In this document: positions 31,694 through 48,336 of the stretch, piece after piece
Position numbering within the stretch: the stretch's first letter is position 1
How the letters are laid out: every line of letters begins with the position of its first letter
From: a virus
IMG/VR virus record: IMGVR_UViG_3300017971_001822
Coordinates: 1-55,926 of that record
Strand: one strand, 5' to 3'
Length of the DNA: 55,926 nt
Made by a program: the position numbers and the translations under genes
The notes under the pieces: generated by a model
Seen by the model: the letters and a program-made list of their open reading frames with translations, nothing else
Told to the model about the DNA's origin: nothing
Databases searched by the model: none

Positions 31694-31861
31694 TTACTTC
31701 TTTACCCTCGGATCTTTACATCCAAGAATCGCCCCGGCAATTCTTTTTGCCGCACTCTGGATCAGTTGTTTTGTTATCGGACCATGAGCGTTGATGGTCG
31801 TCTTCAAGTTCCCGACTATGATCTTATGAATTTTTACATAGTCATCCTTTTTTGACTTCAC
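31694..31861 (-). CDS. Small basic hypothetical protein overlapping the RNA ligase gene
   Basis: 55 residues, GTG start at 31861 preceded by AAAGGAG, ending TAA at 31694. The start lies inside the last codons of the kinase-phosphatase-ligase gene (20-base overlap). The product is basic (DDYVKIHKIIVGNLKTTINA; AAKRIAGAILG; DPRVKK) with two likely helices. No family recognised. It is the last open frame before the CTAG-rich region. Confidence 0.6.
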   Translation of the reverse strand: MKSKKDDYVKIHKIIVGNLKTTINAHGPITKQLIQSAAKRIAGAILGCKDPRVKK

Positions 31862-34064
31862 ACTTCTTCTCCTTTAAAAGATTGTTCTTTGGTTTAATCA
31901 AATCCATGACATATTTGTCTATCGCCTTCTCTTTCTTGTCAAGACATGCGAACATGATTTTGGGATGGGATATATTATATTTCTTTACTCTGTAAGCAAA
32001 CTCCTTTCTATCTTTAGCTAGCTTGTGTGGGCCGTTGAGGATTGTAGCAAAGTCGTCCATAATCGTCCACCTGACTTGGTCGTAAGCCACTTCTAGGGAA
32101 TCCTTTATCTGTTCGTATTCTTTTCTATAGTCTTCATCGATCAGTGAATCATAATCGTCGGAGACTATGCCATTGACCATCGCTCGCCATACAGACAACG
32201 GGGTCAAGTTGGCGAGCAATCTTGCTCGACGGAAATAGTCTTCTGATTTCATTTTGACTCTTGTCCCGTCTGCGAACTTGACTACGACGCCTTCGCAAAC
32301 CCTGCCGTCAGCAGCACTTATGAAGGTTTTGATGTCGTTGATATCTTGGAAATTTAGGATGTTCGGAGTTCTAAATCCGAATTGTTTTGCCCATCTGTCG
32401 ACTTGGTCCCAAGTGATTTCCTCGCCAGTGTTGCGGTCGAACGCACCTAACAAGACAAGATCTTCGTAATCGTAGTTGACTATAATCTTGGTCGTCCTAG
32501 AGACGATTTCGAATACAAGGGTTATTCTGTCTGGCAACCCAGTAAGGTCATAGTTTTTTTGCAAGTGATTGGTTGCCCAGACCGCACCTTCGCTGTGAAA
32601 CGATCCGCGAGTTGCAATCTTGTGTTGTCCGTCGTGACGATATAACGTACCCATCCATCCGTCGAGCTTGTCGAAAATTGTTTGGTGTAGTTTCCACGGG
32701 AGTTTCTTCTCTTGGGTATCTGGTGTTTCGTCCAGATTGAAGAACTTCTTGAACGGCTGTGCTACGATTTCGCCAGTATCGATGTCAAGGATGATGCCAC
32801 GACTGTTGAGAGTGATGTCGTTCCAATTTCGGGAGTGTACGCAGGCATCCGTGTATGTGTAGACCCTTAGATTGTCAAGGTTGTCACATCTCAGTAATCC
32901 TTGAGAGACTAACTCATCTCTAGCCTTAACCATCTCCGGAGTTCCTCTGTTAACATTCGTTAGTCCCGGCACCTCAACCACCTCTGTCTTTCCGTTTTCT
33001 ATAATCAAAGCTCTTAGCACGCCACCGTGACATGCTGCTCCGTCCAAGCAAAACGTGTTTTCGTTCGGCTGAATCTCATCGTGGACTATGTGCCCGCAGA
33101 TTATGTTGTATGATCCATCTAGGAAATCATACCATATTCCGTCTGTGATGTCAAAGTAATCTCTGCTATTGATTCCACGAATATACAAGCAGGTTTCGAC
33201 AGTCTGTTTATCGATTGGGTCTCTTGAGTCAATGCCAGCATGGACGACATACGTCGGCTTGCCGTTAACGTCAGGGACTCTGATCATATGCGGAAGCGAC
33301 GATAACCAGACGGCAACCTCTTGTGGATCAACATTCTGGAGTTGCCGGATAGTTGCATCCAACCCATTGGTCATTTTGACTTTGTTGCCGATACACTGTC
33401 GTTTCAGCTTGTTGTCGTGATTTCCTTCGACAGAATGGACATCTTGAGAAGTCATGGCCCACAATAAGACTTCACGAGATTTCGGACCACGATCTATTAT
33501 ATCCCCAGTAAGAATAATTTTGTCGTCGATACCGAGGTCGCATTTGTCCAACAATTCTCCAAGTTGGTCATAGCATCCATGAACGTCCCCAATTACGATG
33601 CATCTATTTGCATCGCTTAGATCGAGCATCTTGGCATATCTGGGCTTGCCGATTATCTCTATCTCGTCATACTCCCATCTCTGCGGTTTGACGAACAGTT
33701 CCTCAAACGTCCTGATTACTCTCGTGGCAAGTTCGTCGTCGTCTGGGCCAAGGGTTGGATGTTCATTTCTATTTTTAACCCGCTCAAAGCATGTGTGGTA
33801 GTCAATGTCGAACCACACAAACTTGATTTGGTATCCGTATTCCCTCGCTGCTTTGACGTACCTCTGCCGCTGCTCGACGTTGAAGTTCACTCTATCGATG
33901 ACCATAGACTTGCCATCGATCAACCCGCCGCCAAACTCAAGCTTATGCCCATCACGCCCTTGGTCGTCCTGCGAAATTCGCTTATAGTCAGTGAGCGTAG
34001 TTGTGGCGTAATAGGTTTTGCCAGAGCCGGGCAATCCTATTAGGACGACTAGTTTTGGTTTCAT
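31842..34064 (-). CDS. Polynucleotide kinase - phosphatase - RNA ligase fusion (Pnkp-like)
   Basis: 740 residues from the ATG at 34064 (GGAGAG upstream). Three domains in order: a P-loop 5'-kinase (LIGLPGSGKTYYA); a calcineurin-type 2',3'-phosphatase (GDVHGCYDQL, GDIIDRGPKS, EGNHDNKL, YVVHAGID); and a nucleotidyltransferase ligase with KLDGWMGT (adenylated Lys), TRGSFHSEGA, LVFEIVSR and EGVVVKFADGTRVKMKS (motifs IV-V). This is the architecture of bacterial Pnkp, which heals and seals cut RNA, though somewhat shorter. No Hen1 methyltransferase is adjacent. In a phage it would undo host tRNA cleavage. Confidence 0.88.
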   Translation of the reverse strand: MKPKLVVLIGLPGSGKTYYATTTLTDYKRISQDDQGRDGHKLEFGGGLIDGKSMVIDRVNFNVEQRQRYVKAAREYGYQIKFVWFDIDYHTCFERVKNRNEHPTLGPDDDELATRVIRTFEELFVKPQRWEYDEIEIIGKPRYAKMLDLSDANRCIVIGDVHGCYDQLGELLDKCDLGIDDKIILTGDIIDRGPKSREVLLWAMTSQDVHSVEGNHDNKLKRQCIGNKVKMTNGLDATIRQLQNVDPQEVAVWLSSLPHMIRVPDVNGKPTYVVHAGIDSRDPIDKQTVETCLYIRGINSRDYFDITDGIWYDFLDGSYNIICGHIVHDEIQPNENTFCLDGAACHGGVLRALIIENGKTEVVEVPGLTNVNRGTPEMVKARDELVSQGLLRCDNLDNLRVYTYTDACVHSRNWNDITLNSRGIILDIDTGEIVAQPFKKFFNLDETPDTQEKKLPWKLHQTIFDKLDGWMGTLYRHDGQHKIATRGSFHSEGAVWATNHLQKNYDLTGLPDRITLVFEIVSRTTKIIVNYDYEDLVLLGAFDRNTGEEITWDQVDRWAKQFGFRTPNILNFQDINDIKTFISAADGRVCEGVVVKFADGTRVKMKSEDYFRRARLLANLTPLSVWRAMVNGIVSDDYDSLIDEDYRKEYEQIKDSLEVAYDQVRWTIMDDFATILNGPHKLAKDRKEFAYRVKKYNISHPKIMFACLDKKEKAIDKYVMDLIKPKNNLLKEKKCEVKKG

Positions 34065-34264
34065 TACAATCTCTCCATTCCGAACCATCTCATAGTTTGT
34101 TCACCGAACTTGGGCACTTCGATATCTAAGCTTCTCAGTCGTTCTTTCGTATCACGAATTTCTTCCCGAAGCTCGACCACAGTCATATCCTCAAAACTGA
34201 CGGCCTCTCTCTCCAGACAGGCATATAATTCTGCGAGATATGCCATAAGCTGTTTCTTATTCAT
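34064..34264 (-). CDS. Small helical protein
   Basis: 66 residues from the ATG at 34264 (GGAG seven bases upstream); predicted coiled coil (VELREEIRDTKERLRSLD). Its stop overlaps the start of the RNA repair fusion as TAATG. Function unknown. Confidence 0.5.
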   Translation of the reverse strand: MNKKQLMAYLAELYACLEREAVSFEDMTVVELREEIRDTKERLRSLDIEVPKFGEQTMRWFGMERL

Positions 34265-35398: not shown

Positions 35399-36403
35399 CT
35401 ACTCCTTATGTGGGTGACTTTCCTTTATAGACAGCGGAGTTACTAATATATGCTCAACATTTCTAAGCTCTTGGATGTCCCTAGCACCCCCCATTGCCAG
35501 ACCGGATCGTATTCCGTTGGCGTATTCTCTCACGACTTCGTCCGTGGATCCTTTGTAATCCATTGGGATCTCGATTCCTTCCGGGGCGATATCCATTCTG
35601 CCAGATGCGGATCTGCTGGACATTCCTCGGTAGACTTTGTGTCCATCAATGTCTGGTGTGTGGCTTGTCCCTGCAAGCATCCATCCGATCATGCAGGCTT
35701 TTGCCCCTCCCCAGAGAGCTTTGACCATATCTCCGCTGGTTCTCAAGCCGCCGTCTGCTACGATAGCGACGTTGTAGTCTCTGGTCGCATGTGCGCATTC
35801 CATGATTGCCGACAATTGTGGCATACCGAATCCGGTTGTGGTTCTGGTTGTGCAGACAGCACCGGGGCCGATTCCGACTTTGACCGTGTTTACTCCCTCG
35901 GATGCGAACCTCTGTGCCGCTTCTGGGATACAGACATTGCCAGCCATCAACACGAAAGAATATTTTCCCCTCAGTTTATCAAGCTCTCTGAGGGATTTGT
36001 ACATCTTCGTGTGATCGCCATGGGCTATGTCTACGCAGATCAAGTTACATCCTACGTCTAGCAACTTGCTGGCGGTACGATATACATCTTTTTTCACGCC
36101 GACAGCACAGCCGACATTTTGTGCTCCATTATCTCTAGCCCATCCAATCTCTGCGCATTGCCGGTAAAGCTCTTGATCCTCTGGCAGATTGATGTATCTG
36201 GACAGGACTCCTACGCCACCAGCGTCATCCATTGCGACAAGCATCTCTTTCCCTGTGATCGAATCCATCGGGGATGAGATGATCGGCACGCTCAGTTTCA
36301 TAATTCCGCCTAGCAGGATAGAGATGTCTGGTTTCGTGCGAGACTCAAGTGTTGAGTGTTTGGGTAAAAGTAATATGTCATCAAAACATAGCTTTGGGGT
36401 CAT
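35399..36403 (-). CDS. IMP dehydrogenase/GMP reductase family protein
   Basis: 334 residues, no CBS domains. FDDILLLPKHST is the family start, SSPMDSITG follows, VKVGIGPGAVCTTRTTTGFG holds the catalytic Cys loop, and ADGGLRTSGDMVKALWGGA binds phosphate. The stretch CTTRTTTGFGMPQLSAI is closer to GMP reductase (TGVGYPQLSA) than to IMPDH. It would recycle guanine nucleotides for the phage. Whether it is reductase or dehydrogenase is undecided. AAGGAG precedes the ATG. Confidence 0.85.
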   Translation of the reverse strand: MTPKLCFDDILLLPKHSTLESRTKPDISILLGGIMKLSVPIISSPMDSITGKEMLVAMDDAGGVGVLSRYINLPEDQELYRQCAEIGWARDNGAQNVGCAVGVKKDVYRTASKLLDVGCNLICVDIAHGDHTKMYKSLRELDKLRGKYSFVLMAGNVCIPEAAQRFASEGVNTVKVGIGPGAVCTTRTTTGFGMPQLSAIMECAHATRDYNVAIVADGGLRTSGDMVKALWGGAKACMIGWMLAGTSHTPDIDGHKVYRGMSSRSASGRMDIAPEGIEIPMDYKGSTDEVVREYANGIRSGLAMGGARDIQELRNVEHILVTPLSIKESHPHKE

Positions 36404-37136: not shown

Positions 37137-37394
37137 TCAACTCTCCAAATAAAGTGAGCCGCCCGGACTGAAGTTTGCTATCTCCCATTCGATAGCGTCG
37201 GTGCGACTCTTGTTTGTGTGAACTATTTTTCCAGTGATCGCATCAATCACTTCCCATTCCTGTCTTGCTTCGCTGAACTCGACATTGGACGCTCGCCGCA
37301 CATCTGCGACGTGTCCAATCTCGTACAGATCTACTTCGTCGGTATAGAGCGTTCGGACATTTCCATTTTCGTCGATTTCGATTGTGGGTATCAT
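37137..37394 (-). CDS. Small acidic hypothetical protein
   Basis: 85 residues. IPTIEIDENGNVRTLYTDEV resembles the N-terminal strand pair of the DUF2997 gene, and the C-terminal VIDAITGKIVHTNKSRTDAI suggests a small beta-rich fold. Function unknown. It is immediately upstream of the pilin gene. Confidence 0.5.
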   Translation of the reverse strand: MIPTIEIDENGNVRTLYTDEVDLYEIGHVADVRRASNVEFSEARQEWEVIDAITGKIVHTNKSRTDAIEWEIANFSPGGSLYLES

Positions 37395-37648: not shown

Positions 37649-38061
37649 CAACGATACCCTCCGACTAGGACTCGTTGTCTACCATTTGGTAGACGCTCTC
37701 GCCTCACCGAGCGACCACGTCGCTCTTGCTGTTGACGAATGACATGGAACGCATAGTTGCCCTTGAGTCCAGCCATCCATGAATCATTGTATTTACGTTT
37801 ATCAAACTGTGAGACGATAGCTTCGTAGGTTCCGTCTTCTTTCTTCAGAAAGCCGAGGTCGTTGCTTGAGCCACCGACGTTCTGACGACGGATGATGATA
37901 TGTGCAGTTTGTTCTCGCATGTCGCCCTTGTAGCCATATAGGTTTTGGGGCACCTCATGAACTTCAATCTGGGAAGCTTGCCACTGACCAGACTCCATGA
38001 GGGCAGCGATTAGCGCCTCAGCACTTTTGAATTGAGTTTGGACAGAACAATACATACTCAT
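37648..38061 (-). CDS. DUF1257 (Ycf35-like) protein
   Basis: 137 residues. MYCSVQTQFKSAEALIAALM, YGYKGDMREQTAHIIIRRQ, DLGFLKKEDGTYEAIVSQFD and the terminal RLPNGRQRVLVGG match the order of DUF1257 (Ycf35), a plastid/cyanobacterial family of unknown function. It is coupled to the DUF3150-like gene upstream by a 1-base overlap and sits downstream of a Ycf46-like AAA+ gene. AAAGGTGG precedes the ATG. Confidence 0.75.
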   Translation of the reverse strand: MSMYCSVQTQFKSAEALIAALMESGQWQASQIEVHEVPQNLYGYKGDMREQTAHIIIRRQNVGGSSNDLGFLKKEDGTYEAIVSQFDKRKYNDSWMAGLKGNYAFHVIRQQQERRGRSVRRERLPNGRQRVLVGGYR

Positions 38062-39077
38062 CAGATAACCACCTTTCTCTTGAGGCTGTTGATGAACTTG
38101 CTTTCAGCATCGCCGTGGGCCGCTGCTTTCTGGCGAATGGTATCAAGAGTAGTCGTGACAGCCTTCTTCAAGGCGTCGTTTTCGAAGTCCTTCGGAGTTA
38201 CATCACCGCCGAGAAACTTGCTTTTGAATTCGACTAGCATCTTCTCGATCTCCTGATCGCCAAAGATGTTCATTTGCTTGAACCTGTCAACATACTTTCT
38301 GAAGTATGATACGGTTCTGGGCATGAGCTTCTTGGCGTGCTCTTCGTCTTCGAAGGGCTTGCCATTGATTCTTGCCGCCATCAATTCGCAGAAGCGGACA
38401 GTTTCTGCTCGCATCGAATTGACGTACTCTTCGACGAAACCACCAACCTCCTCCTTCATCTGGGTTCGCAGTTCGTGCTTTCTCTCTTCTCGGACAGCCT
38501 CTTTTGCAACGAGTTCGTCGATATTTGCCTCTTGCATTTCTCCGACACCAGCGACCTTGAACGTGTACCAGTTGAACTTGAACTTATGACGAAGAGATTC
38601 TGCGCTCGACGGGTAACAGTGCTTCAGGCATTTTTCCCAGAATTCTGGATACTGACTCTTGACAGTGTCCTTCATGTCTGCGAATCTGGCTACGAAGCTG
38701 TCAACTCTCTGGAAGAACTCTTCTTTCAGGCCCTTAAGCTCTTGTTCGACGCTAGGGAGCATCTTGACAGGGACGAAGTGGCTGCTTGAGATACCGAAGG
38801 GGACTGACCACTTTGCAAGATATACTCTGGCTCTTTGTTGAATGTTGTTCATTACTTTCAACTCAGACTTGGGAACTAAAAGCTTTCTTCCATAGTTGAC
38901 GATGTCCCTCGGAAGACTAGCCGGGTCGATACCCACCTTCCGAAGATCTTCTTCCGTGATCATTTTCCTACCCGACCACATCCCTATGCTCAGGTTCACG
39001 AGACAGCCGACATCGAAGAGATTGACAGCTTGTTCGTCTTTCTCGACGGCTGGCTCTACGACAGTTGCGTTACTCAT
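38061..39077 (-). CDS. DUF3150-like protein
   Basis: 338 residues. LVNLSIGMWSGRKMITEEDL is the start typical of DUF3150 proteins, followed by YGRKLLVPKSELKVM, FGISSSHFVPVKML and long helical regions. Function is not established. Its place between a AAA+ ATPase and DUF1257 suggests it is a partner or substrate of that ATPase, in the way MoxR or CbbQ ATPases pair with von Willebrand partners. GGAGG precedes the ATG. Confidence 0.65.
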   Translation of the reverse strand: MSNATVVEPAVEKDEQAVNLFDVGCLVNLSIGMWSGRKMITEEDLRKVGIDPASLPRDIVNYGRKLLVPKSELKVMNNIQQRARVYLAKWSVPFGISSSHFVPVKMLPSVEQELKGLKEEFFQRVDSFVARFADMKDTVKSQYPEFWEKCLKHCYPSSAESLRHKFKFNWYTFKVAGVGEMQEANIDELVAKEAVREERKHELRTQMKEEVGGFVEEYVNSMRAETVRFCELMAARINGKPFEDEEHAKKLMPRTVSYFRKYVDRFKQMNIFGDQEIEKMLVEFKSKFLGGDVTPKDFENDALKKAVTTTLDTIRQKAAAHGDAESKFINSLKRKVVI

Positions 39078-39090
39078 AATTGCCTCCTAT

Positions 39091-40638
39091 CTAAACAGTA
39101 ACTTTTCTGGTTTTGACTTGTTTATCGACAATCGTCGGGTTGGCTTGCTTTGCTCTTTGGTCACACCATTCACGAATATTCTTAATCCTGCCCGGCTCGG
39201 TCTTGGACAGGGGGACGATACTCTTGATCGCTTCTAGTGCGTGCGGCATATCCAGATCTTCTTCGCGGCTGAATGCGATTTTCAGACTGAGCTTGACAGC
39301 CTGCTCTATATCTGCACCAGTGAACCCGTCAGACTCTTCTGCGAATTTCGTTAATGCGACATCGGTGAATCGACTTCTTCCTCGCTTCTTGAAGTGAATG
39401 TCGAAGATGACTTTTCGTTCGTCTAATTTCGGCAAGTCCATGCCGAAGATCTCATCGAACCTTCCTTTTCGTGCGAACTCAGGCGGAAGACTCTGAACTT
39501 CATTCGCGGTTGCCACAGTGTAGACTGGTGACGTTCTGTCGTTTAACCACTTGATGAACGTCCCGAATACTCGGCGAGACGAACCGCCATCCATATCTCC
39601 AGAGCCGCCAAAGCCTTTTTCAATTTCGTCGAGTTGCAAAACGCACGGTGCTATCCGCTCGATGACTTTGATTGCTTCTCTCATGTTGGCTTCTGAGTCA
39701 CCGACATACTTGGACATCACGTTGCCTATATCCATCGAGATTAGCGGCAGGCCAAACTCAGACGCTATTGCCAGAGATAGCAGCGTCTTTCCACAGCCGG
39801 GGATACCAACCAGCAGCAACCCTTTCGGGAACTCGATGCCGAATTCTCTAGCCTCTTCGCTGAAACATGGTTTATCTAATTCAACGTGATCCTTCAAGGC
39901 TTGATAGCCACCGACGTTATCCAGCCCACCTTCTGGCGGTTCCATGTAAGTCAACAGGCCAGACGACTTAATGACAGTGGCCTTCTCTTTGAGGATCGTT
40001 TGTGTAGCCAGATCGTTTAGGTCTTTGTTCTTTCTTAACGCCAATGCGACACGATCCAGCACCTGCTGTTGCGTCATGCCTCGACAAGCGTTGATGATTT
40101 CTGGGATCATGTCTTCGCTTGGCTCAAACTTATCCCCGTTGCTGTTCTCGACACCCTCGCAGACAAAGCGGATTTGTTTCTCGATCTGTTCCTTATCGGG
40201 GAGATCGAAATCCATCTCGGTGATGTCATGCTTTAACGGGTTGGGGATCTTGAAGTCGGCACCTGCGAAGACTAGGGTTTGTCCCATGTTCGCGGCGGCT
40301 TGTTTGATCTCGTCCAACCAAGCTATGACAATATCGAATTGTGGATACGTTTGATGGTCGAGATAATAGCCGAAGTCTTTGAAGACACAAATTGAATCTT
40401 CGTCAAGTTTCGGCAAGTCCTGAATTGCGACTTCTGGCCCGGTTGCTTGGTCGGCGACCTGTTCGCCGTCCTTGTCTCTCCATCCAGTTGCGATAGACCA
40501 CACGAACACGTTGCGGCCCATCTCTGCTGCGGCTTCCCTGATCTGGTCAATAGCTCTGTCTTTCTCGTGCGTTCGGACTGAGAGCATTGCGTGACCAGAA
40601 AGACAATAGTCGACAAAATCATTCTTGAAGTCGTTCAT
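39091..40638 (-). CDS. Ycf46-like AAA+ ATPase
   Basis: 515 residues from the ATG at 40638 (GGAGG upstream). The N-terminal half is a degenerate ATPase-like domain (AIDQIREAAAEMGRNVFVWS). The C-terminal half is an intact AAA module: LLLVGIPGCGKTLLSLAIA (Walker A), LQLDEIEKGFGG (Walker B), FARKGRFDEIF (R-fingers) and FTGADIEQAV (sensor 2). The bipartite layout and these motifs match Ycf46 of plastids and cyanobacteria. A TTGACT-N17-TAAGCT upstream may be its own promoter. Confidence 0.8.
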   Translation of the reverse strand: MNDFKNDFVDYCLSGHAMLSVRTHEKDRAIDQIREAAAEMGRNVFVWSIATGWRDKDGEQVADQATGPEVAIQDLPKLDEDSICVFKDFGYYLDHQTYPQFDIVIAWLDEIKQAAANMGQTLVFAGADFKIPNPLKHDITEMDFDLPDKEQIEKQIRFVCEGVENSNGDKFEPSEDMIPEIINACRGMTQQQVLDRVALALRKNKDLNDLATQTILKEKATVIKSSGLLTYMEPPEGGLDNVGGYQALKDHVELDKPCFSEEAREFGIEFPKGLLLVGIPGCGKTLLSLAIASEFGLPLISMDIGNVMSKYVGDSEANMREAIKVIERIAPCVLQLDEIEKGFGGSGDMDGGSSRRVFGTFIKWLNDRTSPVYTVATANEVQSLPPEFARKGRFDEIFGMDLPKLDERKVIFDIHFKKRGRSRFTDVALTKFAEESDGFTGADIEQAVKLSLKIAFSREEDLDMPHALEAIKSIVPLSKTEPGRIKNIREWCDQRAKQANPTIVDKQVKTRKVTV

Positions 40639-40683
40639 AAGAGTCCTCCAGTAAGAATAGCTTACCATATTTTTAGAGGTGAG

Positions 40684-41954: not shown

Positions 41955-41991
41955 TTGTTTTCCTTTCTGTTTTTGTTGATCTTAACGCTTA

Positions 41992-42021
41992 ATTATATCA
42001 GCTTCCAGTCGTTTTTTCTAC
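41992..42021 (-). promoter_or_regulatory. Conserved phage promoter, copy e
   Basis: Minus strand. GTAGAAA-N14-TGATATAAT with upstream GAAAATCCG. It lies in the divergent gap next to the HNH gene and drives the 41954 gene with a leader of about 30 bases carrying a ribosome site. Confidence 0.75.
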
Positions 42022-42057
42022 CGGATTTTCAATATTTTTGTCCTCCAAAAGATTCTA

Positions 42058-42086
42058 TTATTTACACACGTAAAAATGTGTATAAT
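42058..42086 (+). promoter_or_regulatory. Promoter of the HNH gene with overlapping inverted repeat
   Basis: Plus-strand TATAAT at 42081-42086, about 19 bases before the GTG start of the HNH gene. An inverted repeat TACACA-N8-TGTGTA (about 42063-42082) overlaps the spacer and -10, and could be an operator or a hairpin. A -35 at 42058 (TTATTT) is poor. It does not match the minus-strand phage promoter. Confidence 0.5.
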
Positions 42087-42104
42087 AGATTAAGGGGGTG
42101 TTTT

Positions 42105-42716
42105 GTGAAAGAAAAAAGGTGTTCCATGTGCAACAAGCCTCTTCCAAGCGGAAGAGCAAGGTGTCGCAGGTGTGAAAATAAGTTTAATAAATACCAAACC
42201 GAGAGGCTCCGCAAGCTGCGAGAAGAGGGTAGATGTACTGTTTGTGCCGTTAAAGTGGAGACTGGCAGATCTCGCTGTGGCGATTGTATCGCGGATGGCC
42301 ATGAGTACGTTGTCAAGAGGCGCTTGCAACTTGCAGATAAAGGCATATGTACTTTTTGTGGCAAGGAGCCGCAACTAGATTCTCTTAGAACTGTTGCCAA
42401 ACAATCTAGGCTAGGCGAAGTTTGCTATTTAAAGAGGAAGTCTTATGATTTCTTTGGCACCAATAAGTATTGGGAGCATATTAGGCTTGTCCTTGAAGAA
42501 CAAGGCTGTAAATGCAGCTACACTGGGCAAGAGATTGTTCTCGGCGAGAATGATTCTCTTGATCATGTCTTGCCAAAAAAGAGATTTCCAGACAAACGAA
42601 AAGATCTTGACAATATTCAGTGGGTTACTCGCAGAGTGAATAAAATGAAAGACGACATGACGGAAGATGAGTTCTTGTCACTCGTCGCTCTCATTCTGAA
42701 TCACTCCGAATTTTGA
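42105..42716 (+). CDS. HNH endonuclease with three Cys-pair modules, free-standing
   Basis: 203 residues, GTG start at 42105 with AAGGGGG upstream. Three repeated Cys-pair units (CSMCNKPLPSGRARCRRC; CTVCAVKVETGRSRCGDC; CTFCGKEP) precede a C-terminal HNH nuclease: DSLDHVLPKKRFPD, DLDNIQWVTRRVNKMKDDM. It is the only plus-strand gene, has its own promoter, and its 3' end overlaps a minus-strand gene by 39 bases. This suggests a mobile homing-type endonuclease inserted in an otherwise one-strand block. No intron is seen. Confidence 0.82.
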   Translation: MKEKRCSMCNKPLPSGRARCRRCENKFNKYQTERLRKLREEGRCTVCAVKVETGRSRCGDCIADGHEYVVKRRLQLADKGICTFCGKEPQLDSLRTVAKQSRLGEVCYLKRKSYDFFGTNKYWEHIRLVLEEQGCKCSYTGQEIVLGENDSLDHVLPKKRFPDKRKDLDNIQWVTRRVNKMKDDMTEDEFLSLVALILNHSEF

Positions 42717-44699: not shown

Positions 44700-44921
44700 C
44701 TATCTCCTAATTGAAGTATTTTGGTACGGCTGGCTTAAGTGGACGGGGAACGTGTGTTCCTCTTCGACGATATCCTCTAGCTCGTCTTCGTCGAGTTCAA
44801 CTTCGTCCATGTCCTCATAGACGGTGGGTTCATTGTAGTCTACTACGAACGATTGATGTACGCACTCTCCGTTCTCGTTGTAGACCTGTATTACTTGTCC
44901 TTTAAGAATTTTTCGATACAT
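44700..44921 (-). CDS. Acidic small protein
   Basis: 73 residues with a strongly acidic stretch (EDMDEVELDEDELEDIVEEE), reminiscent of DNA-mimic proteins but too short to say. AGGAG precedes the ATG. It ends one gene downstream of the conjugation operon. Confidence 0.45.
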   Translation of the reverse strand: MYRKILKGQVIQVYNENGECVHQSFVVDYNEPTVYEDMDEVELDEDELEDIVEEEHTFPVHLSQPYQNTSIRR

Positions 44922-45147
44922 TCTTTTTTCTCCTATGTTTGTTCTTGGACTTCTTCTTGGACTTGTTTTCTTCCTTCTTATCTCCCCCCTCTAACTCAGC
45001 CATTCTCTTCTTGGCGATCCGCCGCCACTGACGAATCGTGTGGTCGCTAGCATACTTGAACCCACTTCCTTCGTCTAGCAGGGCGTGGATCTCTTCCGGG
45101 GTTTGTGCCAGTTTGATACGCTGTTTGAGACCGATTGTGTTAGACAT
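44902..45147 (-). CDS. Small basic protein directly downstream of the E1-like gene
   Basis: 81 residues from the ATG at 45147 (AAGGAG five bases upstream, overlapping the region of the E1 stop). A helical N-terminus (LKQRIKLAQTPEEIHALLDE) is followed by TIRQWRRIAKKRMAELEGG and a very Lys-rich tail. Because it is the next gene after E1, it could be a substrate or partner of the conjugation system. The many lysines would make good acceptors (inference). Confidence 0.5.
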   Translation of the reverse strand: MSNTIGLKQRIKLAQTPEEIHALLDEGSGFKYASDHTIRQWRRIAKKRMAELEGGDKKEENKSKKKSKNKHRRKKNVSKNS

Positions 45148-45160
45148 ATTTGTCTCCTTA

Positions 45161-45823
45161 TTAGCTTCTCGCACGCATCTCGTTCGTCAGAGTGTTCAGT
45201 TCGACCAGACGGTCGATTTCACATCCTCTGAGCCATTTGGCGAACTGTGCGACCATTACGCCAGCGGCTATGTTTGAACAATAGATTGTTGTCTTGGCGG
45301 TACAACTGCCCTGAAAAGATTCGCTCGACGGGAATATTTCATTTTCTTCATACCAGTCGCCGGTTTCGTCGTTGTACACAGATAGGACTCTGAGATATTC
45401 TGCCGACATTCTTCCATCGATCCATAGATCGGCTCGACTACGGACTTGTTGAAAGATCTCTTTGCGGGTATCAATCGAGTCGACGCAGCAGAAGATGACC
45501 CCCCCAGTAAACGATAGATTAGAAAACTTTCTATTTACCGTTGGTACGCTGATCTTGCTGTTGATCTGTTTGCACAAACCAGAGACGGCACTTACCTTTG
45601 ACTTGCCGAGATCTGTCTCGAAGAAACCTTGAGCGGCCAGATTCTCCACTTCGACTGAATCAAAGTCTATCAGCTTGATCTTTGGCACGCCTATCGCAGC
45701 AAGCTGGAGAGCGACTTGTCTTCCGATTGCTCCTACTCCGACAATCGTAACGTCAGTCTGCGACAGTTTCTCTGGTGGAATCAGATCTCTTTGGCGGATG
45801 TCTCGATCATCTAGATTGTTCAT
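45161..45823 (-). CDS. E1-like ThiF/MoeB-family adenylating enzyme
   Basis: 220 residues. GVGAIG at 29-34 with the following helix is the ATP-binding loop, LIDFDSVEVENLAAQGF (51-67) the acidic strand plus the N-L-x-x-Q segment, DLGKSKV the K74 loop, and WIDGRM the later strand. GSCTAKTTIYC (172-182) carries a likely catalytic C174. Single adenylation domain without a separate cysteine domain, as in prokaryotic ThiF-type E1s. It overlaps the JAMM gene by 17 bases and has GGAG. It should activate the 80-residue Ubl encoded at 48094. Confidence 0.85.
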   Translation of the reverse strand: MNNLDDRDIRQRDLIPPEKLSQTDVTIVGVGAIGRQVALQLAAIGVPKIKLIDFDSVEVENLAAQGFFETDLGKSKVSAVSGLCKQINSKISVPTVNRKFSNLSFTGGVIFCCVDSIDTRKEIFQQVRSRADLWIDGRMSAEYLRVLSVYNDETGDWYEENEIFPSSESFQGSCTAKTTIYCSNIAAGVMVAQFAKWLRGCEIDRLVELNTLTNEMRARS

Positions 45824-46766
45824 AAAACTCTCCTGATTTTACTATGTTCGCGTGATTATCTGCCCACTCTCTAACATCGTCCATCCAGTCTTTCTCTCCC
45901 TTGACAAGTTTCCCAGAATCTTCCCAACGGAAAGTGTTCTCGACTGGATCGTAGACGACGTACTCATTTTTCTTGTCATGCCAATACCATACTACTCCGT
46001 TGGCTGTATAGATATCTAAATCTATGAAGTCATCATCTTCGTCGACGACCACTTTGCCGTCTGCAAGGTCTATGACCGCTTTGTCCGTCAGATTGGCTAT
46101 CTCTTCGTCGCTATATCCCATCCTCGCCAGTTCAGCTTGCGGATCCTTGTATGTTTTCATAGTTTGAAATCTATCGCAATAATCATTTGAGTAAGGAGTG
46201 AATGTTTCTATCTTCGTGGCTGAGAAACCAGCGATTTTACATTCTATAACCTTCTCGTCGTACTCTTTCTCCCATTCATCTTTGTTCGTGCCGTTGAATG
46301 GAATAGAATAGTCTATCTGAACGTCAAGTTTAGACTCAAATCCGGGGCCGACATTAAACTTGATTCTGCAATAGTCCTTGCCGCCTTCTGCAAGAATATA
46401 CATGATCGACCAGTGCGGATGACCGAAGTTCTTGACGAAGTTCTCCTCGTCCGTCTTCGATGGCTTTGGGCAGTCGCCCGGATGCGTATGTATCCAGATG
46501 TTGCCAGTTTGCCATGGGGCTAGACCGACATCTAGCATCTTTTCGGCAAACAAGCCAGAGTCCTCTTCATCTAGTTCGACTGACGCCATAGTACACTCCT
46601 GCTTGACCAAGGCGAAGTCGGTGACGAGCATCGGATCTTCAGTGCCGGTGATCCCATACCCTCCCACTTCTGTCTCGCCAACGTCTCTCATAAAGAGAAG
46701 TTTCGCGTAGGCATACGGAGTGAATCGTAGGATTGGATCAGATTTGATTGGTTTCTTGTATTCCAT
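45807..46766 (-). CDS. JAMM/JAB-domain metalloprotease (deubiquitinase-like)
   Basis: 319 residues. The full JAMM set is present: E33 in GETEVGG, then H93-x-H95-x7-S103-x2-D106 in IHTHPGDCPKPSKTD. The N-terminal half (to about 150) is the MPN domain; the C-terminal half has a UBA-like segment (LARMGYSDEEIANLTDKAVI) and an acidic region. Relatives remove ubiquitin-like proteins from targets or trim precursors. It may mature the Ubl, whose last residues are GAVC. It overlaps the E2-like gene by 29 bases. Confidence 0.88.
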   Translation of the reverse strand: MEYKKPIKSDPILRFTPYAYAKLLFMRDVGETEVGGYGITGTEDPMLVTDFALVKQECTMASVELDEEDSGLFAEKMLDVGLAPWQTGNIWIHTHPGDCPKPSKTDEENFVKNFGHPHWSIMYILAEGGKDYCRIKFNVGPGFESKLDVQIDYSIPFNGTNKDEWEKEYDEKVIECKIAGFSATKIETFTPYSNDYCDRFQTMKTYKDPQAELARMGYSDEEIANLTDKAVIDLADGKVVVDEDDDFIDLDIYTANGVVWYWHDKKNEYVVYDPVENTFRWEDSGKLVKGEKDWMDDVREWADNHANIVKSGEFYEQSR

Positions 46767-48039
46767 CTTGTTCTCCGTTTAAGGTTAGTAGACATTCGTG
46801 CCCGCAGTTCCCGCAGGTTGTTTCCCCGCACCCGCCGCACTTTTTGAGACATTCTGCTTTGCACAAGGTTTCACCGCATTCTTCGCATTGACTAATGCAA
46901 TCAGAACAGAGATGTAAATCGGTACATTCATTACACTTTTTAGTACAGTTATTGCATACGATACTTTGACAGTCTTCGCACTTATCTCTGCACTTGTCGC
47001 AAATATCGTCTCCGCATTCGGAACACGACTCTATGCAAGATTCGCAATATTCTTCTTTACATAGGTCGCACGCCTTCACGCACGATTCGCAATGAGTTCC
47101 TCCACAGTAGTAGCAAGATTTCTCACACGATTCGCACACCATACCTCCACATTCGTTGCACGACTGGGCACAGCCCGAATGGAAGATCTCGTCACACGAA
47201 TTACATTTTACTGAACAGTGGCAACACACCCAATCGCCACATTTGCTACATTCATCCATATTGTCGTAGTGATACCAATGGTCACAACTCTCACAATACC
47301 TCTCGTCTTCGCTACCTTGGTCTCCGAACCAATTTTCCAGAGCCACATGCGGAGACTGATCGTTATAGTTGTGTAGAATCGTGTCGATGGTTGTGAACAC
47401 GCTTTCCAGACGACCTTGGTACATTGCTGCTAAAGCAATTTCATCACCATCTCCGAAACACAATACCCCGTCACTTACATGAGGATGTGTGACATAATCG
47501 TTCTCTGCTGCCGGATGTGGATCAAGAGCTTCGATCCATACTAGGACAGACAGCCCGCAGGAAATATCTTTCGACAAGTCCATGTTTATTTGGAACGAGC
47601 CTAGATATACCTCATCGCAATCTCCCCAAAGAGATATTGAGTCAGTCTTTACGCTTAGTACGTTGTTTCTGTACTCGGCTCCACCGAAGAACTTATCTAT
47701 GGCTTTTATCTCATAGAATATTTCCCTGACACTTGGCTCAACCATCTCCTCTCTGGTCTTGCCTTCTATGAGATTTTTAACCATTGCAAGATCTAGGTTT
47801 GCACGCCGACATTGGTCTGTAAGCATGCTGTCCTTGAGATGTTGCTCGGCGACTCTCATACCTTTTCGCTGGCAGTCCAGAGTTTTTCGACACCACTTTT
47901 CAAGTTCTTCGAGCCTTTGTCTTGTTTTGTCGGCGTAGAAGACGATGGTTTCTGTTTCTTTATCTTTCGCCTTCTGTATGCCTCTTACGAGCGTGTCGCA
48001 AAAGGCAGACGCCGCTCGATACATTTGTTTTTCTGTCAT
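46738..48039 (-). CDS. E2-like protein fused to a C-terminal tandem zinc array
   Basis: 433 residues from the ATG at 48039 (GGAG 6 bases upstream). N-terminal helices (1-105) lead to a core (about 112-235) with VWIEALDPHP, THPHVSDGVLCFGDGDEIAL and FTTIDTILHNY. HPH followed by G-x-L/I-C is the E2/RWD-like pattern, with Cys about 194. From about 249 to 416 there are about ten 15-residue units of C-x2-C-x4-C-x2-C, such as CYYCGGTHCESC, CDLCKEEYCESC and CSECGDDICDKC. E2 plus a zinc array suggests a combined E2 and E3-like protein. It sits between Ubl and JAMM genes. Confidence 0.8.
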   Translation of the reverse strand: MTEKQMYRAASAFCDTLVRGIQKAKDKETETIVFYADKTRQRLEELEKWCRKTLDCQRKGMRVAEQHLKDSMLTDQCRRANLDLAMVKNLIEGKTREEMVEPSVREIFYEIKAIDKFFGGAEYRNNVLSVKTDSISLWGDCDEVYLGSFQINMDLSKDISCGLSVLVWIEALDPHPAAENDYVTHPHVSDGVLCFGDGDEIALAAMYQGRLESVFTTIDTILHNYNDQSPHVALENWFGDQGSEDERYCESCDHWYHYDNMDECSKCGDWVCCHCSVKCNSCDEIFHSGCAQSCNECGGMVCESCEKSCYYCGGTHCESCVKACDLCKEEYCESCIESCSECGDDICDKCRDKCEDCQSIVCNNCTKKCNECTDLHLCSDCISQCEECGETLCKAECLKKCGGCGETTCGNCGHECLLTLNGEQDGIQETNQI

Positions 48040-48059
48040 CGTTCGCTCCATAGGAAATA

Positions 48060-48083
48060 GGGGAGCGGCTTCCGCCGCCCCCC
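48060..48083 (-). promoter_or_regulatory. Strong hairpin between the Ubl and E2 genes
   Basis: On the transcript: GGGGGCGGC-GGAA-GCCGCUCCCC, a 10-base-pair stem (one G-U) closed by a GGAA (GNRA-type) loop, starting about ten bases after the Ubl stop. No U-run follows, so it is not a classical terminator. It may attenuate transcription or protect the Ubl message from decay, giving more Ubl than enzyme. Confidence 0.6.
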
Positions 48084-48093
48084 GGAGAGAGAA

Positions 48094-48336
48094 CTAGCAG
48101 ACAGCCCCATCGACCTTCTTCGGACTCAGCGTAACACGCATGTTGTCGTGCAGAGGGGTGTCGAGATTGCTGATCTGCTCGGAGTCGCCATTGGGATACC
48201 GCAGACTTACGGTGAAATCATAGGTATCGCCGCCAAAGTGATTTTGGAGGAACTCGGCGACAGAGACGCCATCTTCCGTCGTGATACGACGGGGCAGACC
48301 GCTACCGTCATTGGTAGCAAGAGTTACATTAATCAT
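48094..48336 (-). CDS. Ubiquitin-like beta-grasp protein
   Basis: 80 residues. The predicted order is strand-strand-helix-strand-strand: MINVTLATND, LPRRITTEDGVSVAEFLQNH (strand and helix), DFTVSLRYPNGDSE, and LDTPLHDNMRVTLSPKKVDG. The turn L-H-D-N-M-R-V-T-L-S-P resembles the ThiS/MoaD stretch L-x-D-G-D-x-V-x-x-x-P before the terminal glycine. The C-terminus is GAVC rather than GG, so processing after G77 or A78 is possible. GGAG precedes the ATG. It is first in the operon with E2, JAMM and E1 genes. Confidence 0.75.
   Translation of the reverse strand: MINVTLATNDGSGLPRRITTEDGVSVAEFLQNHFGGDTYDFTVSLRYPNGDSEQISNLDTPLHDNMRVTLSPKKVDGAVC

Follow-up and report, generated by a model that had tools for sequence, protein, structure and literature searches.

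A probable ubiquitin-like protein-modification operon in a family of large tailed-phage-type viruses

Four genes and their products

The window analysed here, meaning the whole stretch of 55,926 bases that makes up IMG/VR virus record IMGVR_UViG_3300017971_001822, is a single viral record, classed as linear and as a probable fragment. At positions 45161-48336 of its minus strand lie four co-directional, mostly overlapping genes, encoding a ubiquitin-like protein (Ubl), an E2-like protein, a JAMM protease and an E1-like ThiF adenylase. A gap of 42 bases separates the Ubl and E2 genes, and the E2/JAMM and JAMM/E1 pairs overlap by 29 and 17 bases, exactly as a first-pass annotation made from the sequence alone had reported; all four open reading frames (ORFs) lie where it had placed them (Table 1). 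The four genes probably form a tightly packed, translationally coupled operon. Drawing on homology, motifs and conservation of the operon, we consider it likely, with good confidence, that together they specify a complete, reversible Ubl protein-modification cycle borne by large tailed-phage-type viruses. The operon is probably catalytically complete, and probably a new variant among prokaryotic Ubl conjugation systems. The first-pass annotation had likewise read the locus as a complete Ubl/E2/JAMM/E1 set carried by a virus, with an E2 carrying a presumed zinc array, and each of these components could be identified.

The 80-residue protein had been proposed to be a beta-grasp protein, and structure prediction bore this out: its AlphaFold2 (AF2) model is a beta-grasp with a predicted local distance difference test (pLDDT) score of 87, and its matches in VIA-align were MoaD (Z 10.4), SAMP1 (Z 8.8) and the ubiquitin of C. 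subterraneum (Z 8.3). A planctomycete member of the same Ubl family matches Pfam ThiS at 1e-4. The window protein ends in -VDGAVC, without the C-terminal Gly-Gly of ubiquitin-like modifiers. Across the family, the tail follows the pattern P-x-x-[IV]-x-G in 68/71 sequences, and the residue after the glycine is alanine in 61 of these 68, glycine in 4, serine in 2 and proline in 1. None of the 68 stops at that glycine; 16 stop one residue later and the others extend further, which points to Gly-Ala as the mature end and implies that the longer forms need trimming. On the simplest reading, Gly-Ala would be the counterpart of Gly-Gly, with the remaining tail removed by the JAMM protease. In three relatives (L005, 2384-3121; L019, 417-1082; L022, 303-968), two or three Ubl domains occur per protein.

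In the E2-like protein, residues H189, P190, C198 and G200 are invariant among 20 sequences, and a regular-expression search recovered the HPH..C motif in 76/81 relatives. Its domain at residues 111-240 is modelled by AF2 with a pLDDT of ~93 and has a UBC-like order of elements (helix, strands, HPH, Cys, helix, helix), so that an HP motif precedes the predicted catalytic Cys within a UBC-like fold, as in the UBC/E2 superfamily. Profile-profile comparison against 14 archaeal PF00179 E2s using hhalign, with 200 column shuffles as controls, placed the HPH of the viral family on the HPN of archaeal UBC proteins and Cys on Cys (score 35.1, P 9e-5). Scores of the shuffles reached at most 19.7 (n=200), and unrelated profiles scored 14-18. 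A larger alignment of 53 family members raised the score to 41.3 (P 1e-5). The earlier proposal of an E2-like protein with HPH...Cys is thus upheld by invariant residues, profile and model alike. The number of CxxC motifs per E2 ranges from 0 to 21 among the 81 relatives. The cysteine array gave RING-like matches in PDB (E 0.009 and weaker), but these may reflect Cys composition, and a RING identity was not adopted.

The two remaining enzymes also proved to be what the annotation had taken them for. In the JAMM protein, the catalytic columns E33, H93, H95, S103 and D106 are invariant (n=20), giving the full JAMM/MPN+ signature E-x(n)-H-x-H-x7-S-x2-D, and the motif HxHx7SxxD/E is present in 86/91 relatives. 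The window protein itself matches Pfam Prok-JAB below threshold, and a 20-member profile searched against PDB retrieved Rpn11-like JAMMs first (E 4e-5, 6fjv). The E1-like protein matches ThiF (PF00899) at 1.4e-27 over one domain only. Its GVGAIGR stretch, K76, D115 and C174 (in C174-T175) are invariant (n=18), and the CT motif is found in 99/103 relatives. It thereby combines a Rossmann adenylation domain bearing GxGxxG with a conserved Cys that is likely to be catalytic, as expected of the E1/ThiF superfamily.

Table 1 Features of the putative Ubl operon and neighbouring genes in the window
Feature	Position	Strand	Description
Ubl	48094..48336	-	80 aa, beta-grasp, putative modifier; C-terminus ...SPKKVDGAVC, invariant Gly77 then Ala
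E2-like (UBC) protein with C-terminal cysteine array	46738..48051	-	437 aa; N-terminal helices 7-95, UBC domain ~108-242
Predicted E2 catalytic Cys198 codon	47458..47460	-	9 residues after H189 of HPH; invariant, n=20
Tandem CxxC array, presumed zinc-binding	46804..47295	-	~19 CxxC by motif count
JAMM/MPN+ isopeptidase (predicted)	45807..46766	-	319 aa; E33, H93-x-H95-x7-S103-x2-D106
E1-like ThiF adenylyltransferase	45161..45823	-	220 aa, single Rossmann domain, GVGAIG motif, invariant Cys174
Predicted E1 catalytic Cys174 codon	45302..45304	-	Invariant, n=18 sequences
ORF with very lysine-rich tail	44902..45174	-	90 aa, no known family; 14-base overlap with end of E1
Cdc48/p97-like AAA+ ATPase (possible accessory)	39091..40668	-	PF00004 1.8e-28; VCP-like 8e-55
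DUF3150 protein (possible accessory)	38061..39077	-	Adjoins AAA+ gene; PF11348 1.5e-20
Small protein, family f13	37137..37394	-	Follows DUF3150 in planctomycete operons (neighbourhood clustering)

Distribution in viruses and cells

Using the E1 as bait in IMG/VR, we found the four genes in identical order and on the same strand in 21/21 other viral contigs examined, which excludes chance as the source of the arrangement; the E2, as a single-protein query against viral contigs, found nothing. Among the products of the window's genes are a DnaE-type DNA polymerase, a primase, a DnaB-like helicase, UvsX, ribonucleotide reductase and thymidylate synthase, and the virus family was delimited by the polymerase, whose relatives split into a close group of at least 53% identity and a distant one of ~30%. 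All six close-group contigs of 160 kb or more (G010, G011, G014, G280, G281 and G285) carry the E1, as do four shorter close-group contigs; the distant polymerase relatives carry it in 0/4 cases. The operon is therefore nearly a core trait of this virus family. Portal and terminase genes in G011 identify the family as tailed-phage-type. In the E1 tree, the window falls in a supported clade (100/95) of nine viral sequences and one copy from a Heimdallarchaeota metagenome-assembled genome (MAG). Near-core status among the viruses, together with close cellular relatives in Planctomycetota, corrects the earlier impression that the operon was the oddity of a single phage.

In the bacterial and archaeal genome collection, relatives were found at 140 places, and the best 80 of the 140 lie nearly all in Planctomycetota MAGs, with one each from Heimdallarchaeota, Thermoplasmata, Actinomycetes and an Emcibacter MAG. 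No matches to the E2 were found among plasmids. Most cellular contigs of sufficient length hold the same four-gene operon, including tens of planctomycete loci. Within Planctomycetota its occurrence is patchy (3/198 other sampled genomes), and some genomes carry four or five copies. The planctomycete operons share the genes, order and motifs of the viral one, with E1 proteins ~45-54% identical, a Gly-Ala Ubl end and a cysteine-array E2; unlike the viral operon, they are chromosomal and patchy, and are often preceded by AAA+/DUF3150 genes or by a gene for an HSP90-type ATPase. The Heimdallarchaeota copy lies on MAG chromosome CP070695.1 (L028; G006:C1), where a stretch at ~48-172 kb is largely colinear with virus G011, terminase, portal and Ubl operon included; a search of that genome for the virus polymerase found none. 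Either a partial provirus or chimeric assembly could account for this stretch, which was not used for host assignment. On a 27-kb Thermoplasmata MAG contig (QMTU01000001.1; L029), three E2-like genes and two Ubl-like ORFs are clustered.

Gene sets of a similar kind occur in two further phages. In the cultured Xanthomonas phage PhiXhv-16 (PV764603.1, 86865-90741; L234), a ThiF E1 gene lies beside a gene for an 892-aa protein with a Cys-rich end, whose HPH..SLCLG region matches the window E2 family (hhalign P 2e-4), and upstream is a 140-aa protein ending in GG, a candidate Ubl. This phage differs from the window in that the E2 part is embedded in a long protein and no JAMM was recognised in the stretch read. 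It carries a divergent version of the Ubl operon. In the crAss-like phage cr111_1 (MT774387.1, 58661-62536; L233), a gene annotated 'thiamine biosynthesis ThiF' follows one with a full JAMM motif, which is itself preceded by a gene with an HSH..GGCLG stretch, forming a possible Ubl operon. The gene sets of both phages suggest that Ubl-type enzyme sets are spread more broadly in phages than the family of the window virus. The 426-aa candidate E2 of the crAss-like phage gave no match to the window E2 family, leaving crAss-like phages as a lead only.

Some additional features of these genomes are recorded here. In three relatives (L002, 4926-5702; L003, 5278-6000; L013, 2427-3167), an HNH-type ORF on the other strand separates the E2 and JAMM genes. 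These ORFs belong to a single family with a homologue at 41955-42716 (+) of the window, and are probably homing endonucleases. Elsewhere in the window, positions 31842-34088 encode a 748-aa fusion of a kinase-like AAA_33 domain, a metallophosphoesterase and a T4-type RNA ligase, probably a one-chain RNA-repair protein, and a virus-borne gene of the IMP dehydrogenase/GMP reductase family lies at 35399-36403.

Comparison with named Ubl systems

The first-pass annotation had named Bil, CBASS (cyclic oligonucleotide-based antiphage signalling system) Cap2/Cap3 and PRTRC cassettes as relatives. They are related in kind, but by motif, architecture and score the operon appears to be a member of none of them, nor of classes 6d and 6e of Iyer et al. 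2006. The Bil operon likewise unites Ubl, E2, JAMM and E1, with a JAMM that trims the Ubl. Its BilA has two Ubl domains, its BilB a CEHH motif and its BilD an inactive and an active adenylation domain with a Cys domain (PMC11354881), whereas here there are a single Ubl, an HPH-Cys E2 with a cysteine array and a single-domain E1. At the spacing of the CEHH motif (C, +6 E, +8 H, +13 H; PMC11354881), the window E2 reads C198, E204, A206 and Y211, and its E1, with 220 aa and a single ThiF match, leaves no place for the two-domain Bil arrangement of inactive and active adenylation domains (IAD and AAD) with a Cys domain.

CBASS Cap2/Cap3 and the 6A-MBL systems employ the same E1/E2/JAB chemistry, but in both the E1 and E2 are fused, no separate Ubl is present and the genes stand beside a CD-NTase or metallo-beta-lactamase, while the viral operon has separate genes and its own Ubl. 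The E1-E2 fusion of type II CBASS is absent from the window, the Cap3 model reached 17.4 bits against a cut-off of 200, and the E1 scored 37 bits against the 6A-MBL model (cut-off 320). PRTRC cassettes also pair a ThiF-type E1 with Ubl-type partners, and the window E1 reached 31.4 bits in the PRTRC_ThiF equivalog model, with a cut-off of 144.75. The Caldiarchaeum/Asgard operon (Ub, E1, E2, small RING and Rpn11-like protein; described in part in PMC5654768) resembles the viral set in its HPN/HPH-type E2, Rpn11-like JAMM and E2 profile homology; it differs in having a canonical UBC that matches PF00179 and a separate RING protein, in place of an E2 that matches no Pfam family and is fused to a cysteine array. 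The Iyer et al. classes (PMC1779556) are likewise operons of Ubl, JAB, E1 and E2, and tandem Ubls in some relatives are a further shared feature. The class 6d E2 lacks the upstream His, and in class 6e the E2 is inactive and the JAB fused to E1 (PMC1779556); in the present family HPH is retained in nearly all relatives. A search of the available literature found no description of the operon in phages or planctomycetes, though an earlier mention of the planctomycete version may exist.

Predicted cycle and competing explanations

We propose a cycle in which each catalytic step, the cleavage site and the function of the array are predicted from the features above. The JAMM protease would trim the Ubl tail and expose the terminal Gly-Ala (in the window, ...VDGA|VC); the E1 would adenylate this C-terminus with ATP and take over the Ubl as a thioester on Cys174; and the Ubl would then pass to Cys198 of the E2, in which HPH stands at the place of the HPN of UBC enzymes. 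The E2 would attach the Ubl to target lysines, its own presumed zinc array possibly serving as a built-in substrate- or E3-like module, and the JAMM protease would finally take the Ubl off again. The lysine-rich ORF beside the E1 gene is a possible substrate.

Several observations weigh against this interpretation. It is unusual for conjugated Ubls to end in Gly-Ala, and neither the window Ubl nor the window E2 on its own matches a Pfam family; none was found for them in NCBIfam, PHROGs or PADLOC either. The hit lists of a structure search with the E2 model were filled by N-terminal helices and uninformative on the UBC domain, and the search was therefore replaced by the hhalign comparison with shuffle controls. 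Two distant E2 relatives lack the cysteine array, whose role consequently cannot be universal. Four other, shorter family contigs of 44-140 kb showed no E1; they may be fragments or represent real losses.

As every near-full-length contig of the family keeps the operon, its main use may lie in the virus's own cycle, in tagging host or virion proteins, and the operon would then be no occasional passenger; we give this an even chance. A virus-borne anti-phage or superinfection-exclusion system, in which Bil-like tagging of competitors' assembly proteins lets the resident virus keep the cell, is possible, if doubtful. Related Bil and CBASS operons are established antiphage defences (PMC11354881, PMC10097602), the cellular relatives are patchy and sometimes multi-copy, as accessory defence islands would be, and several loci contain serine-recombinase genes; yet near-core status in the virus family is unlike a hotspot passenger, and the conserved neighbour families include no recognised toxin or nuclease gene. 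We see only a slight chance that the set serves counter-defence by stripping or out-competing host Ubl conjugates. JAMM is a deconjugase and Ubl tagging features in known host defences (PMC11354881), but a JAMM or a decoy alone would suffice for this purpose, and the catalytic residues of E1 and E2 are kept across the family, which together make pure counter-defence improbable. It is also very unlikely that the genes form a sulfur-carrier pathway (ThiS/MoaD with a ThiF/MoeB-like enzyme) for a cofactor or tRNA, with the JAMM trimming the carrier and the E2-like protein structural. The best curated matches of the E1 are indeed ThiF/MoeB models, and MoaD is the top structural match of the Ubl. 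All of those model scores, however, fall far under the curated cut-offs, the HPH and Cys of the E2 are conserved throughout, and no adjacent rhodanese, MoaE or thiazole gene was recognised.

A further explanation holds that the operon works only together with a Cdc48-like AAA+ ATPase and a DUF3150 protein, the ATPase unfolding or extracting tagged proteins and the Rpn11-like JAMM stripping the tag, as a minimal analogue of p97 or the 19S particle. In Planctomycetaceae, genes for the Cdc48-like AAA+, DUF3150 and two small proteins directly precede the Ubl operon, and in the window the AAA+ and DUF3150 genes lie ~4.5 kb downstream of E1. Neighbourhood clustering found AAA+ and DUF3150 near the operon in 17 and 13 cellular loci, respectively, and DUF3150 is present in 5/5 close viral relatives and 9/11 further family contigs. 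The resemblance of the ATPase to Cdc48 and of the JAMM profile to Rpn11 fits such a partnership. Against it, cultured phages of Rhizobium and Pseudomonas have homologous AAA+ genes but neither a DUF3150 match nor a Ubl operon in the ~13 kb examined, in Phycisphaerae that place is taken by a gene for an HSP90-type ATPase together with others, the genes are not adjacent to the operon in the virus, and contigs G283 and G284 keep DUF3150 without the E1. We regard strict dependence on these proteins as rather unlikely, and AAA+ and DUF3150 were rejected as obligate parts of the operon as unproven, given that the cultured phages have the AAA+ but showed no Ubl operon over the region read.

Returning to a Ubl cycle that serves the virus itself, we tentatively suggest, as a less than even prospect, an undescribed Ubl system with a Gly-Ala modifier and a cysteine-array E2, near-core in large tailed viruses, which remodels host or virion proteins with the Cdc48-like ATPase during infection. 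If true, viruses of prokaryotes would encode a ubiquitin-like regulation of their infection cycle. Among the known prokaryotic Ubl conjugation operons that include an E2, those with a tested function mostly defend hosts against phages; in the present case viruses carry the full set, and almost all large members of one family have kept it, so that viral use of ubiquitin-like tagging for its own ends in prokaryotes becomes directly testable. Planctomycetes and viruses, joined by a virus-like copy from the MAG of an Asgard archaeon, also make up an added lineage whose E2 has the eukaryote-type HP-x...Cys arrangement and which bears on the origin and spread of ubiquitin systems.

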